Assembly (NCBI RefSeq): GCF_014204975.1
Contig: NZ_JACHMM010000001.1
Coordinates: 930,001 to 994,000 of the forward strand
DNA: 64,000 nt
Origin: Jiangella mangrovi
Lineage (GTDB): Bacteria; Actinomycetota; Actinomycetes; Jiangellales; Jiangellaceae
Reading direction: 5' to 3'
Part shown: piece after piece, positions 40,665 through 61,967 of the stretch
How the letters are laid out: each line of letters starts with the position of its first letter
How positions within the stretch are numbered: position 1 is the stretch's first letter
Notes under the pieces: generated by a model
Told to the model about the DNA's origin: nothing
The model's input: the letters and a program-made list of their open reading frames with translations, nothing else
Databases searched by the model: none
Translations under genes and position numbers: made by a program

Positions 40665-40725
40665 GTTGATCATGGAGAAGAGCGGGTTTCCAGGGCCGTG
40701 GAAGCCGCACTTCTCCATGATCAAC
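40665..40725. repeat. TGATCAT-core palindrome 3
   Basis: Perfect 16-nt arms GTTGATCATGGAGAAG (40665-40680) and CTTCTCCATGATCAAC (40710-40725) with a 29-nt loop. Arms and parts of the loop match palindrome 2 (23872-23928). Located in the 295-nt gap 40604-40898 between converging genes, which holds no gene that I can support. Confidence 0.87.
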
Positions 40726-57419: not shown

Positions 57420-58313
57420 TCACCATGATCCGAAAACACGGTCGGTGTTCTCCTGGAGCGCGTGACACACCGTCTCGACACTCTGGCCGAGGGTCTCGGC
57501 GATGAACCGCACCGTCACCGGGACCAGGTACGACGCGTTCGGCCGGCCGCGGTACGGGTGCGGCGTGAGGAACGGCGCGTCGGTCTCGACGAGCAGGTTT
57601 CCGAGCGGCGTGACGGCGAGCGCGGCACGCAGATCGGCCGCGTTCCGAAACGTCACCGGACCGGCGAAGGACAGGTACCAGCCGCGCTCTGCGACGTCGC
57701 GCGCGAAGGTCTCGTTCCCCGAGAAACAGTGAAATACGACACAATCGGGCGTTTCGGCGTCGTCGAGGACCCGCAGCACGTCCTCGTGGGCGTCCCGGTC
57801 ATGGATGGTCAGGACCAGTCCGCGGCGCCGGGCGATCTCGATGTGGGCGCGCAGCGAGTACTCCTGAGCGGCCACGCCCTCGGGCCCGGTGCGGAAGAAG
57901 TCGAGGCCCGTCTCGCCGATGCCGCGCACCCGTGGGCTCGACCCGGCCAGCCGGTCGATCTCGGCCAGCGCGTCGTCCAGCGTGCCCCCGGCGGCCAGCT
58001 TCGGCGCCTCGTTCGGGTGCAGCGCGACCGTCGCGACGACCGACGGGTACCGCTCGGCGACCTCGACGGCCCAGGCCGCGCCCGGCAGGTCGCAGCCCAC
58101 CTGCACGACGCGGGTCACGTTCACCTTCGCGGCGGCGTCCAGCGCCTCCGTCACCCCGAACGCGTCGCCGTCGTCACCGTCGGCGATGTCCATGTGGCAA
58201 TGGGTGTCGGTGACGGGCAGCGGGAGCGGCTCGGGCAGCGGCGGCCGCGACCGGTCGCGCTTGCGGCCCGACTCGTCGGTGGCCGACCGCCGCTCGCGGG
58301 GTGTGTCGCTCAC
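57420..58313 (-). CDS. TatD-family metal-dependent hydrolase
   Basis: 297 aa from GTG 58313, overlapping the metG stop by 4 nt. The N-terminal ~40 residues are a basic, disordered-looking extension (RERRSATDESGRKRDRSRPP). TatD motifs follow: VTDTHCHMDI, VALHPNE, GIGETGLDFFR, LTIHDRDAHEDVL, VFHCFSGN, LLVETDAPFLTPHPYRGRPN. TatD proteins are 3'-5' DNA/RNA exonucleases involved in repair or turnover. Confidence 0.93.
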   Translation of the reverse strand: MSDTPRERRSATDESGRKRDRSRPPLPEPLPLPVTDTHCHMDIADGDDGDAFGVTEALDAAAKVNVTRVVQVGCDLPGAAWAVEVAERYPSVVATVALHPNEAPKLAAGGTLDDALAEIDRLAGSSPRVRGIGETGLDFFRTGPEGVAAQEYSLRAHIEIARRRGLVLTIHDRDAHEDVLRVLDDAETPDCVVFHCFSGNETFARDVAERGWYLSFAGPVTFRNAADLRAALAVTPLGNLLVETDAPFLTPHPYRGRPNASYLVPVTVRFIAETLGQSVETVCHALQENTDRVFGSW

Positions 58314-59893
58314 TGCCCGTCGGCGGCGAGGTCGAGCCGCGGGAACAGTGCGTCGCCCTTGGTGACCTCGGCGCCGGGGACCAGCTGGCCCCAGCGGCCG
58401 GCGTCGGCGACCGGCTGGGCGGCCAGCGCGCCGAGCGCCTTCTCGGCCCCCAGGGACTCCCACAGCTTCGCCGTCGCCTTCGGCATGACCGGGTTCAGCA
58501 GCACGGCCAGCGCCCGCAGCGCCTCGGCGGAGGAGTACAGGATGGTGGCCAGACGCTCGCGCTGCGACTCGTCCTTGGCGACGGCCCACGGCTGCTGCTC
58601 GGTGATGTAGCCGTTGGCGGCCTCGACCAGGGTCCAGACGGCGGCCAGCGCCTCGTGCGGGGCGACGCGGTCGACGGCGGCCTCGGCGTCCTGCGCGGCC
58701 TTGGCGGCGACGGCGGCCAGCGCGTCCTCGGCGGGGGTCGACGGCCCAGGGGCCGGCAGCACGCCGTCGAAGTAGCGGCCGACCATGGCGGCGACGCGCG
58801 AGGCGAGGTTGCCCAGCCCGTTGGCGAGCTCGGCCTGGTAGCGCGCGGCGATGTCCTCCCACGAGAACGAGCCGTCGTTGCCGAACGCGATGGCGCGCAG
58901 GAAGTAGTACCGGAACGCGTCGGAGCCGAACGTGTCGATGATCTGCGCCGGGGCGATGCCGGTGAGCTTGGACTTGCTCATCTTCTCGCCGCCGACCAGC
59001 AGCCAGCCGTGCGCGAACACCTTCTTCGGCAGCGGCTCACCGGCGGCCATGAGCATGGCCGGCCAGATGACGGCGTGGAAGCGCAGGATGTCCTTGCCGA
59101 CGAAGTGGATGTCGGCCGGCCAGGTGCTCTGGTACTTCTCCGGGTCGGCGCCGTAGCCGGCCGCCGTGGCGTAGTTGAGCAGCGCGTCGAACCAGACGTA
59201 GATGACGTGCGCGTCGTCCCACGGCACCGGGACGCCCCAGTCGAACGTCGAGCGCGAGATGGAGAGGTCCTGCAGTCCCTGCCGGACGAAGCCGAGCACC
59301 TCGTTGCGGGCGCTCTCGGGCTGCACGAAGTCGGGGTTCTGCTCGTAGAACTCCAGCAGCCGCTCGGTGTAGGCGGACATGCGGAAGAAGTAGTTCGTCT
59401 CCGACAGCTTCTCGACCGGCCGGCCGTGGATCGAGCAGAGCAGCTGCCCCTCGTACTCCCCGGTGCCCTCGACGAGGTCGCCGGGGAGCTTGTACTCCTC
59501 GCAGGCGACGCAGTAGTAGCCCTCGTAGGTGCCCTCGAAGATCTCGCCGGCGTCGTAGAGGTGCTGGATGAAGTCCTGCACCCGGGCCACGTGCCGCGGC
59601 TCGGTGGTGCGGATGAAGTCGTCGTTCGATGCGTCGATGGTCTCGAGCACCGGCTTCCAGGCGGTGTCGACCAGCCGGTCGGCCCACTCCTGCGGGGTGA
59701 CGCCGTTGGCCTCGGCCGTGCGCATGACCTTCTCGCCGTGCTCGTCGGTGCCGGTGAGGAACCAGACATCCTCCTGGCGCTGACGGTGCCAGCGGGCGAT
59801 GAAGTCGGTGGCTACGGTCGTGTACGCGTGGCCGATGTGCGGTGCGTCGTTGACGTAGTAGATCGGCGTGGTGACGTAGAACGCCTTGGGCAT
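58310..59893 (-). CDS. metG: Methionyl-tRNA synthetase
   Basis: 527 aa. Class I synthetase with HIGH motif (DAPHIGHAYTTV at ~16-27) and KMSKS (GGEKMSKSK at ~300-308); FLTGTDEHGEKV and FVGKDILRFHAVIWPAML are MetRS landmarks; cysteines in YCVACEEYKL may bind zinc. No C-terminal EMAP-II domain. ATG 59893. First gene of metG-tatD-rpf-rsmA-ispE. Confidence 0.97.
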   Translation of the reverse strand: MPKAFYVTTPIYYVNDAPHIGHAYTTVATDFIARWHRQRQEDVWFLTGTDEHGEKVMRTAEANGVTPQEWADRLVDTAWKPVLETIDASNDDFIRTTEPRHVARVQDFIQHLYDAGEIFEGTYEGYYCVACEEYKLPGDLVEGTGEYEGQLLCSIHGRPVEKLSETNYFFRMSAYTERLLEFYEQNPDFVQPESARNEVLGFVRQGLQDLSISRSTFDWGVPVPWDDAHVIYVWFDALLNYATAAGYGADPEKYQSTWPADIHFVGKDILRFHAVIWPAMLMAAGEPLPKKVFAHGWLLVGGEKMSKSKLTGIAPAQIIDTFGSDAFRYYFLRAIAFGNDGSFSWEDIAARYQAELANGLGNLASRVAAMVGRYFDGVLPAPGPSTPAEDALAAVAAKAAQDAEAAVDRVAPHEALAAVWTLVEAANGYITEQQPWAVAKDESQRERLATILYSSAEALRALAVLLNPVMPKATAKLWESLGAEKALGALAAQPVADAGRWGQLVPGAEVTKGDALFPRLDLAADGQ

Positions 59894-59919
59894 GCGCCCG
59901 ATGGTAGTCCCCGCCCATC

Positions 59920-59973
59920 CATGATCATCAACCGCTGGCGACACCATGACGTCGCCAACGGTTGATGATCATG
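59920..59973. repeat. TGATCAT-core palindrome 5 (left bracket of the AbiEi-like gene)
   Basis: 23-nt arms 59920-59942 (starting CATGATCATCAACCG) and 59951-59973 pair with one mismatch over the 8-nt loop ACCATGAC. Its reverse complement nearly equals the element at 60992-61045. It lies between divergent metG and the AbiEi-like gene, so it is not a terminator. Confidence 0.88.
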
Positions 59974-60034
59974 TGGATACCCACGAGGTTGTCCACACAT
60001 CACGTTCTGGCCCTGGCGCACAGCGCGCGCGTCG

Positions 60035-61040
60035 ATGAGGCTCGGCGGCGTGGGACTGCCTTCCGATGTCGCCGTGATCGCCGCGCAGCAGCACGGCGTG
60101 ATCGGCCTCGACCAGGCGATCGCGGCCGGGCTGACGCAGCGACGCATCGGCTGGCTCGTGCGCTCGGGGCGCTGGCGGCGCGTGCACGCCCGGGTGTACG
60201 CCGTCTTCCCCGGACCGCTCTCGTTCGAGGGCCTCGTCTGGGCCGCGATCCTGCGCGCCGGCCGGGGCGCGGTCGCCAGTCACCGGACGGCCGCGTACCT
60301 CGATGGTCTCTGCGACGAACCCGGGCCGGTGGTGCACGTCACCGTGCCGGCTGACCGGCACGTGCGCAGCCGGATCGACGGCGTCCGGGTCCACTACGCG
60401 CACCGCTTGGACCGGACGCGTCACCCCACACGCACGCCACCCCGCACCCGTACCGAGGAGACGGTCCTCGACCTGGTCGACATCACCCGCCGTCCGCAGG
60501 AGGTCGAGACCTGGGTGACGTCGGCCTGCCAGCGCCGCCGCACGACACCAGAGCGCCTCGCCGACGCGCTCGCGCTGCGCAAGAAGATCCGCTGGCGGCC
60601 GATGGTGGAGAGCATGCTGAGCGACGTCGAGGAGGGTGCGCAATCGCCGCTCGAGCTCCGTCACCTCCACGCCGTCGAGCGTGCCCATGCCCTGCCTCGC
60701 GGCCATCGGCAACGGCGGGTGACTGGTGGCCGCGTCACCTGGGTGGACGTCGACTACGACCGGTACACGCTCCGGGTCGAGCTCGACGGCCGGGTCGGAC
60801 ATGCCGACGAGGGCCGGTTCCGCGACCGTCATCGCGACAACCGCGCCACCACGCACGGACGGGCCACGCTGCGGTACGGCCACGCCGATGTCTTCGGTGA
60901 TCCGTGCGGGGTCGCCGCGGAGCAGGGACGCGTGCGAGGACCGGGGTTGGACCGGAACGCCACGCGCCTGCGGCCCCGACTGTCGTTCGCCCATGATCAT
61001 CAACGGGTGGCGACGTCATGGTGTCGCCAGCGGTGGATGA
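60035..61040 (+). pseudogene. AbiEi-antitoxin-like / DUF559 endonuclease-domain protein, frameshifted
   Basis: About 330 codons. The N-terminal winged helix (HGVIGLDQAIAAGLTQRRIG, GRWRRVHARVYAV) matches the AbiEi antitoxin N-terminal region, with a linking domain (SHRTAAYLDGL) and a C-terminal DUF559/Vsr-like nuclease fold (VDVDYDRYTLRVELDGRVGH, DRHRDNRATTHGRATLRYG). The frame breaks between 60911 and 60945. The expected ending EDRGWTGTPRACGPDC continues in the +1 frame to TGA 61038-61040 inside palindrome 6. Start uncertain. Related genes are common in actinobacteria and of unproven role. Confidence 0.7.
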
Positions 61041-61045
61041 TCAAG
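60992..61045. repeat. TGATCAT-core palindrome 6 (right bracket of the AbiEi-like gene)
   Basis: Arms 60992-61014 and 61023-61045 pair with a few mismatches around the 8-nt loop GTCATGGT. It is nearly the reverse complement of palindrome 5, so the AbiEi-like gene is enclosed by inverted copies. It contains the stop codon of that gene and ends 10 nt before the converging oxidoreductase stop. Confidence 0.85.
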
Positions 61046-61054
61046 CGAGGAGGG

Positions 61055-61930
61055 TCAGAGCTTGGGCACGACGGTCTCGAAGAACAGCTCGACCTGGCGG
61101 CGGGTGTCGCCGCGTACCGGCCAGAAGACGAAGGTCTCGAAGCCGAGCCGCTCGCGGTAGTCGGTCAGCGCCTCGGCCCAGTGCGCGGCCGGCCCGACCA
61201 GGAGCTGGTCGTTGCGCCGCGCCTGGTCGTCGTCGATGACGCCCATGACGTTGAACACACGCCGGATCGCGGACGGGTCGCGCCCCGCGGCGACGGCGGC
61301 CGCGTCGACCGCGCGCTGCATGGCCGGCACCTCGTCCAGCGACAGGTAGGCATTGGTGGGCAGCCAGCCGTCGGCGTGCCGGCCAGTGAGCGCCAGCATG
61401 CGCGACTTGAACGCGCCGACCCAGACCGGCGGGACGGGGTCCGGCGGGGCTCCGGCGACGGCGACGGCCTCGCGCAGCCGGTAGAACTCGCCGTCGTGGT
61501 CGACGCGGTGACCGCTCCACAGCCGCCGGAGCAGCGGGATCGCCTCGTCCAGCGCGCCGATGGCCTGCCCGAGCGAGCCCCACTGCGCGCCCCACCCGGG
61601 CAGCCCGTCGTACGGCCCGCCGGCGCCCAGCCCCAGCACGAACCGGCCGCCGCTGGTGAACTGCAGCGTCGCGGCGGCCTTCGCGATGACCGTCGGCGAC
61701 CGGAACGGCAGCGCCGTCACGTTCGTCGCGACTCGGACCCGCGACGTCCGGGCGAGCAGCAGCGGGACCAGCGTCCACGCGTCCAGCTCCGACGGCAGGT
61801 ACGGATGGTCGGCGACGGTGACGAGCCCGGCCCCGAGCTCCTCGGCGATGGTGGTCGCCTCGAGGAGCTCGGGAAGCCGCTTCGCCGACGCAGGGAGGGC
61901 CGCGCCGAACTCGATCGCTGTGGTGGTCAT
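61055..61930 (-). CDS. LLM-class (luciferase-like, probably F420-dependent) oxidoreductase
   Basis: 291 aa. TIM-barrel luciferase-like fold: IEFGAALPASAKRLPELLE, VTVADHPYLPSELDAWTLV, VRVATNVTALPFRSPTVIAK, GGRFVLGLGAGG and WVGAFKSRMLALTGRHADGW. Most such enzymes in actinobacteria use F420; the substrate is unknown. ATG 61930 lies at the expected start point of a SoxR-like promoter, so translation is probably leaderless. Confidence 0.85.
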   Translation of the reverse strand: MTTTAIEFGAALPASAKRLPELLEATTIAEELGAGLVTVADHPYLPSELDAWTLVPLLLARTSRVRVATNVTALPFRSPTVIAKAAATLQFTSGGRFVLGLGAGGPYDGLPGWGAQWGSLGQAIGALDEAIPLLRRLWSGHRVDHDGEFYRLREAVAVAGAPPDPVPPVWVGAFKSRMLALTGRHADGWLPTNAYLSLDEVPAMQRAVDAAAVAAGRDPSAIRRVFNVMGVIDDDQARRNDQLLVGPAAHWAEALTDYRERLGFETFVFWPVRGDTRRQVELFFETVVPKL

Positions 61931-61936
61931 GCCTCC

Positions 61937-61967
61937 ACTACACAACCTCAACCAACGTTGAGGTCAA
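61937..61967 (-). promoter_or_regulatory. SoxR/MerR-type promoter of the LLM oxidoreductase
   Basis: On the minus strand TTGACC (61962-61967) and TGTAGT (61937-61942) are separated by 19 bp, the long spacer of MerR-activated promoters. The spacer region holds CCTCAAC-GTTG-GTTGAGG (61946-61963), a perfect dyad matching the SoxR box CCTCAAx-N4-xTTGAGG. It overlaps the stop codon of the UvrA-like gene. Confidence 0.7.

Follow-up and report, generated by a model that had tools for sequence, protein, structure and literature searches.

What does a single gene do between two inverted copies of one palindrome, and can such a unit move? In a 64,000-nucleotide stretch of the Jiangella mangrovi genome (the window; contig NZ_JACHMM010000001.1, positions 930,001 to 994,000), palindromes at 59920–59973 and 60992–61045 are inverted copies of each other and enclose one gene. 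An earlier note on this DNA likened the unit to a mobile or domesticated cassette with the layout, although not the protein, of units built around REP-associated tyrosine transposases (RAYTs); empty and inverted sites in relatives, and matched palindromes elsewhere, support that comparison. To our knowledge, REP palindromes have so far been explained solely by RAYT proteins of the HUH type. We find that the layout recurs across actinobacteria, each gene with a different palindrome, and that it looks like an unrecognised form of small mobile DNA. The cassette probably belongs to a REP-like system as its gene-carrying part; such a system would work in the manner of a REPtron, with an unrelated nuclease in place of the RAYT.

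The cassette and its gene

The palindromes had been described as near-identical and oppositely oriented, and they are: the arms at 59922–59973 and 60992–61043 are 94% complementary, whereas direct comparison gives only 85%. The left palindrome (no strand assigned) has 23-nt arms around an 8-nt spacer, with ACCATGAC as its loop; the right palindrome (no strand assigned) has the loop GTCATGGT. Both fold as strong hairpins, with DNA minimum free energies of -25.2 kcal/mol on the left (z -8.75) and -18.7 kcal/mol on the right (z -5.0). A scan of the window for the half-site motif returned four matches from the two palindromes, against 0.02 expected, and one additional match with three mismatches at 40718. 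This exact palindrome type is unique to the window cassette (site S1) in the 7.16-Mb, single-contig genome, in which related palindromes are abundant. The single enclosed gene is flanked by metG (58310–59894, minus strand) and the gene of an LLM oxidoreductase (61055–61951, minus strand).

That gene (60035–61040, plus strand) encodes, as judged from its sequence, a winged helix of the AbiEi-antitoxin fold fused to a putative DUF559/Vsr-like nuclease domain. For the winged-helix DNA-binding domain (60062–60240, plus strand), the region whose divergence follows the palindrome, the score against AbiEi_4 passes the Pfam threshold. Over its first ~190 residues the protein is similar to the AbiEi antitoxin and to Rv2827c, and this part models as an AbiEi fold (6y8q, Foldseek E 1e-6; also 1zel). 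The AbiEi-like half of the earlier description stands; the DUF559 half is sub-threshold in the subfamily of the window gene, of which 13 of 27 members match with a best E of 0.0044 (below the cut-off), and is clear in a distant relative of the same layout, L027 (DUF559, 8e-6; MTES_1575, 5.5e-9). The putative nuclease motif WVDVDY..RVELDGRVGH...GRFRDRHRDN (60740–60844, plus strand) comprises conserved columns with a weak DUF559 match. Its Vsr/DUF559-like acidic, His and RD residues are nearly invariant, and the C-terminal motif of the family reads D..D...[VI]E.DG..H....RD..RDN. Models of this domain were poor (pLDDT below 50 across most of residues 190–276), and its fold is of low confidence because the alignments used were shallow. 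Pfam-type domain searches of the family proteins found no DDE domain.

The window's own copy of the gene is probably inactive. In alignment with relatives, it lacks 2 bp at 60934/60935 that G003 and G005 have, and the frame is shifted: the frame open from 60035 meets no stop at the right repeat and runs past the palindrome, and the family-typical C terminus and the stop codon at 61038–61040, within the right repeat, are in the other frame. The stop codon that had been placed inside the right repeat is thus there in the family frame, but not in the open one. The G001 copy also has a deletion at the matching point.

Between the left palindrome and the gene, at 59989–59997 (plus strand), lies TTGTCCACA, which has exactly the sequence of the high-affinity DnaA box known in actinobacteria from Streptomyces and Mycobacterium (PMC4285127). 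It occurs with at most one mismatch in 52 of 86 elements, compared with 1.9% of control windows. Either TTGTCCACA or TTATCCACA comes directly after the left palindrome upstream of most relatives, and of the distant DUF559 genes L022, L024, L025 and L030 too. The box may couple expression or movement to replication.

Matched palindromes, their sites and their dispersal

The genome of the window contains five close paralogues of the gene (60–74% identity), and each of the six genes lies between palindromes whose sequence differs from gene to gene. Two of these 12 ends are imperfect or truncated (L018 and L019), and the ends of L017 and L020 are in direct rather than inverted orientation. Across the family sample of 50 genes in 12 Jiangella genomes, a palindrome is present at one end at least in nearly all relatives, and at both in most. 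At least 15 of the 16 outer bases are paired in 35 of 50 left flanks and 35 of 50 right flanks, against 0 of 400 control windows per side; chance and plain terminators are excluded, as no control window reached the observed pairing. Several of the remaining flanks are contig ends, truncated or broken by another repeat. The palindromes are 44–60 nt in length, with TGATCAT ends usual in the family of the window gene and other sequences elsewhere, and the stop codon lies within the right palindrome in 32 of 34 testable genes.

The two ends of an element match each other. The left–right match is 0.795 within and 0.259 between Jiangella elements (n = 35, p ≤ 1e-4), and 0.766 within and 0.186 between elements of other genera (n = 15, p ≤ 1e-4), in which the own partner scores best in 14 of 15 cases. 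The layout of these 15, which come from other genera and families within the class, is the same, and their palindromes are unrelated. Distant DUF559-type genes of Jiangella have matched palindromes at both ends as well, and the commonest solo palindrome type of the window's genome flanks two distant DUF559 genes there on both sides. The suggestion that other DUF559 genes might carry the same palindromes was right as to matched ends, which extend across the genus and to other families, but no single repeat is shared. Among the papers searched, those that mention DUF559 do not, by their titles and abstracts, describe such a system, and we found no actinobacterial REP system in the literature searched, subscription journals being mostly outside the reach of these searches.

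Palindrome and winged helix diverge together. Gene clades correspond to palindrome types. In partial Mantel tests, palindrome distance follows the winged helix when the rest of the protein is controlled for (r = 0.47, p ≤ 2e-4), and the reverse control leaves the rest of the protein without a correlation of its own (r = 0.04, p = 0.20). The correlation is strongest at residues 13–54, the recognition helix region. At most positions of the arms, two to four different base pairs occur, with pairing kept. The binding sites of AbiEi and Rv2827c are pairs of 23-bp inverted repeats that are 3 or 13 bp apart (PMC7319586); the arms of the window palindrome are 23 nt long and 8 nt apart. Taken together, the co-divergence, the covariation of paired bases, the likeness to AbiEi and the 23-nt arms strongly support recognition of the cognate palindrome by the winged helix.

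Occupancy of sites is polymorphic, and orientation varies. At S1, the cassette is present in 6 of the 12 Jiangella genomes (G000, G001, G003, G005, G007 and G009), and is inverted relative to the window's genome in G001, G003 and G007; constant presence of the gene at this locus, which the earlier note had named among the grounds against mobility, was not seen. In G010 and G004, metG and the LLM gene are adjacent, as that note had proposed to look for, with a clean junction that lacks any palindrome. Different gene clades occupy S2, and likewise S4, in different species, and S3 holds a cassette in the window's genome, a solo palindrome of another type in G009 and nothing in G003 and G010. No target-site duplication was found at the empty sites compared (at about 75–95% identity), nor is one visible when the window cassette is set against the empty sites of relatives, which agrees with its reported absence. 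Two near-identical full cassettes at different sites of one genome were not found, so movement of whole cassettes is old or rare. Phage carriage was rejected, as no relative was found in viral contigs.

Palindromes are also dispersed as solo copies, of which a strict pattern finds 21–135 per Jiangella genome and 0 with a reversed control; those of the window's genome were counted by pattern only. The dispersed copies are lineage specific: when eight cognate palindromes were searched in six genomes, the matches listed lay only in the genome or genus with the matching gene. Some solo types lack a cognate gene in the same genome, such as the CAACCTT type in the window's genome (6 among the matches listed). 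In 21 of 27 cassettes a neighbouring stop codon is no more than 30 nt away, and among solo palindromes of G017 and G005 such closeness is about three times as frequent as at random positions. G017 has at least 20 copies of one palindrome that are at least 97% identical, which, by their likeness in sequence, is a recent burst. Solo palindromes of G005 are absent from orthologous sites of relatives, and at two of their sites G002 has a different palindrome type.

The solo palindromes of G017 are centred in longer, site-specific inverted repeats (run of 6.6 versus 4.3 when shuffled, p ≤ 2e-4), and such repeats are weaker in G005. Among the G017 copies L282–L301, the cores are identical and the surrounding inverted repeats differ by site, with up to 17 bp of perfect pairing (L289). 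It is as if the palindrome had been inserted into a hairpin or had made an inverted copy of its flank. A pre-existing hairpin as the target was rejected at three G005 sites, where the empty site of relatives has no hairpin; the relatives of G017, at ~80% identity, are too diverged to decide on this.

A proposed REP-like system and its rivals

In the system that we propose, a single-copy gene would encode an AbiEi-type winged helix joined to a nuclease domain of Vsr/DUF559 type. The winged helix would bind the gene's own palindrome as two ~23-bp half-sites about a short spacer, and the palindrome so recognised would be the one at both cassette ends and in solo copies elsewhere. The nuclease would cut or nick the palindrome after binding, probably in its extruded hairpin form during replication or repair, and the palindrome would be copied to new sites, mostly just past stop codons, and the whole cassette only rarely. 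We infer binding from the way in which palindrome and winged helix diverge together, cutting from the weak DUF559 match along with the conserved acidic/His motif, and mobilisation by the AbiEi/DUF559-type protein from cognate co-occurrence and the lack of a Y1 transposase in 12 genomes.

RAYT genes always lie between two inverted REPs, which they are thought to spread (PMC2817692, PMC6006769). With REPtrons and REPINs, the elements described here share one usually low-copy gene between two family-specific palindromes, many solo copies, a gene phylogeny that follows palindrome type, an intergenic preference and no observed target-site duplication; their palindromes likewise flank the gene in inverted orientation, with a minority of elements in direct orientation. 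They differ in that the RAYT is an HUH-Y1 protein (PF01797), whereas here a winged helix is combined with a putative PD-(D/E)XK-type nuclease domain; in that RAYT REPs are short and GTAG/CGTC-tagged, whereas these have symmetric TGATCA-type feet and no tag; and in that the Jiangella hosts have no Y1_Tnp gene at all (12 genomes searched).

The AbiE type IV toxin–antitoxin systems share the AbiEi-fold N terminus, and AbiEi proteins bind 23-bp inverted-repeat pairs; here, by contrast, there is no neighbouring AbiEii (DUF1814) gene, the protein has an additional nuclease-like domain, and the repeat recurs at the 3′ end and genome-wide. A toxin–antitoxin operon was rejected for the window gene, which has metG and the LLM oxidoreductase gene as neighbours and no DUF1814 toxin gene next to it. 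The DUF559/MTES_1575/Vsr-like PD-(D/E)XK nucleases share the C-terminal motif, with a weak Pfam match in the subfamily of the window gene and a clear one in L027, but are known as enzymes of repair, restriction or intron homing rather than as partners to cognate palindromes; EDxHD homing endonucleases are among the Vsr-like members. Insertion sequences and MITEs of DDE type differ, as our elements have neither a DDE domain nor a target-site duplication at the empty sites compared. The DUF222-HNH 13E12 repeats are also multi-copy, single-gene nuclease families of actinobacteria, but have an HNH fold, and we know of no cognate palindrome pair for them.

The cassettes could instead be stationary: a solitary AbiEi-like regulator that carries a nuclease tail would have the end palindromes as its operator and its terminator, and the dispersed palindromes would be its regulon, or terminators, of other origin. 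AbiEi antitoxins do autoregulate by binding inverted repeats (PMC7319586), the left palindrome is at an operator position, the right one includes the stop codon, and many palindromes lie just past stop codons; an autoregulator and its operator would likewise produce a winged helix that tracks the palindrome. We nevertheless consider this unlikely, as an operator requires no same-sequence duplicate at the 3′ end, and such a regulator has to contend with near-identical solo copies in a recent burst, with sites that are empty in close relatives and have no hairpin there, and with single sites that hold different subfamilies or an inverted gene. The variety of occupants at one locus, which differ in subfamily or are reduced to a solo palindrome according to species (S4; S3, with a solo copy in G009), and the Vsr/DUF559-like nuclease domain would both suit a homing-type element, in which the nuclease cuts at or near solo palindromes, the cassette enters by gene conversion with the palindromes as short homology, and the solo copies spread in some other way. 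Clean empty sites without any palindrome imply that insertion needs no resident one, and solo palindromes of cognate type far outnumber cassettes; we regard homing as quite unlikely. The palindromes could also be ordinary REPs that a RAYT (TnpA-REP) spreads, the AbiEi/DUF559 gene being only a passenger; the layout is indeed that of a REPtron, in which a gene lies between two REPs with dispersed copies. This is very improbable: the palindrome type follows the winged helix of the AbiEi/DUF559-type gene, and RAYT-moved REPs are contradicted in Jiangella by the absence of any PF01797 (Y1_Tnp) match in 12 genomes, when E. coli and other controls match; this leaves room only for an HUH protein that is strongly diverged or not yet catalogued.

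The proposed REP-like system has a broader form, in which proteins with a winged helix and a PD-(D/E)XK nuclease mobilise their own palindromes throughout the class; they would form a new mobile element and REP-generating machinery that is unrelated to HUH transposases, with coupling to replication suggested by the DnaA box. We give this broader form an even chance. If the winged-helix/nuclease family does the work of RAYTs in actinobacteria, elements of REP type have arisen on at least two occasions, around unrelated enzymes, and many genes annotated as ‘AbiEi antitoxin’ or ‘DUF559’ would be actors in the spread of palindromes rather than in toxin–antitoxin function or defence. The paired winged helices and palindromes would also constitute a natural recognition code, with dozens of homologous readers and their targets alongside.

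Overlapping, nested and duplicated palindromes

At L202 (G000:C1:1404775–1405865), a palindrome occurs in two identical copies, each with the same 10-bp outer flank (CCTCCGTTCA), on either side of an unrelated open reading frame of ~340 codons, for which there was no Pfam or PADLOC match; it looks as if insertion of the gene had duplicated the palindrome in full. L302 and L319, both from Phytoactinopolyspora, are longer, nested palindromes (86–91 nt) that have TGATCATG at their ends and an inner core like GACTGCAGGCATGGTGA in common. They stand where G017 has a solo palindrome, and are another palindrome family. In G008, the flanks of two family members (L103 and L112) have a CCGCCCTAACTTAACGGCATTG-type sequence beside palindrome remnants, perhaps a different small repeat that is aimed at the palindrome loop. 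Two palindrome types overlap through a shared TGATCA end at L190, L192 and L199, forming tandem pairs, and pairs of the same kind are found at G000:C1:1146444, 2688602, 2791762 and 2891675. These overlapping pairs suggest that TGATCA is itself a landing site.
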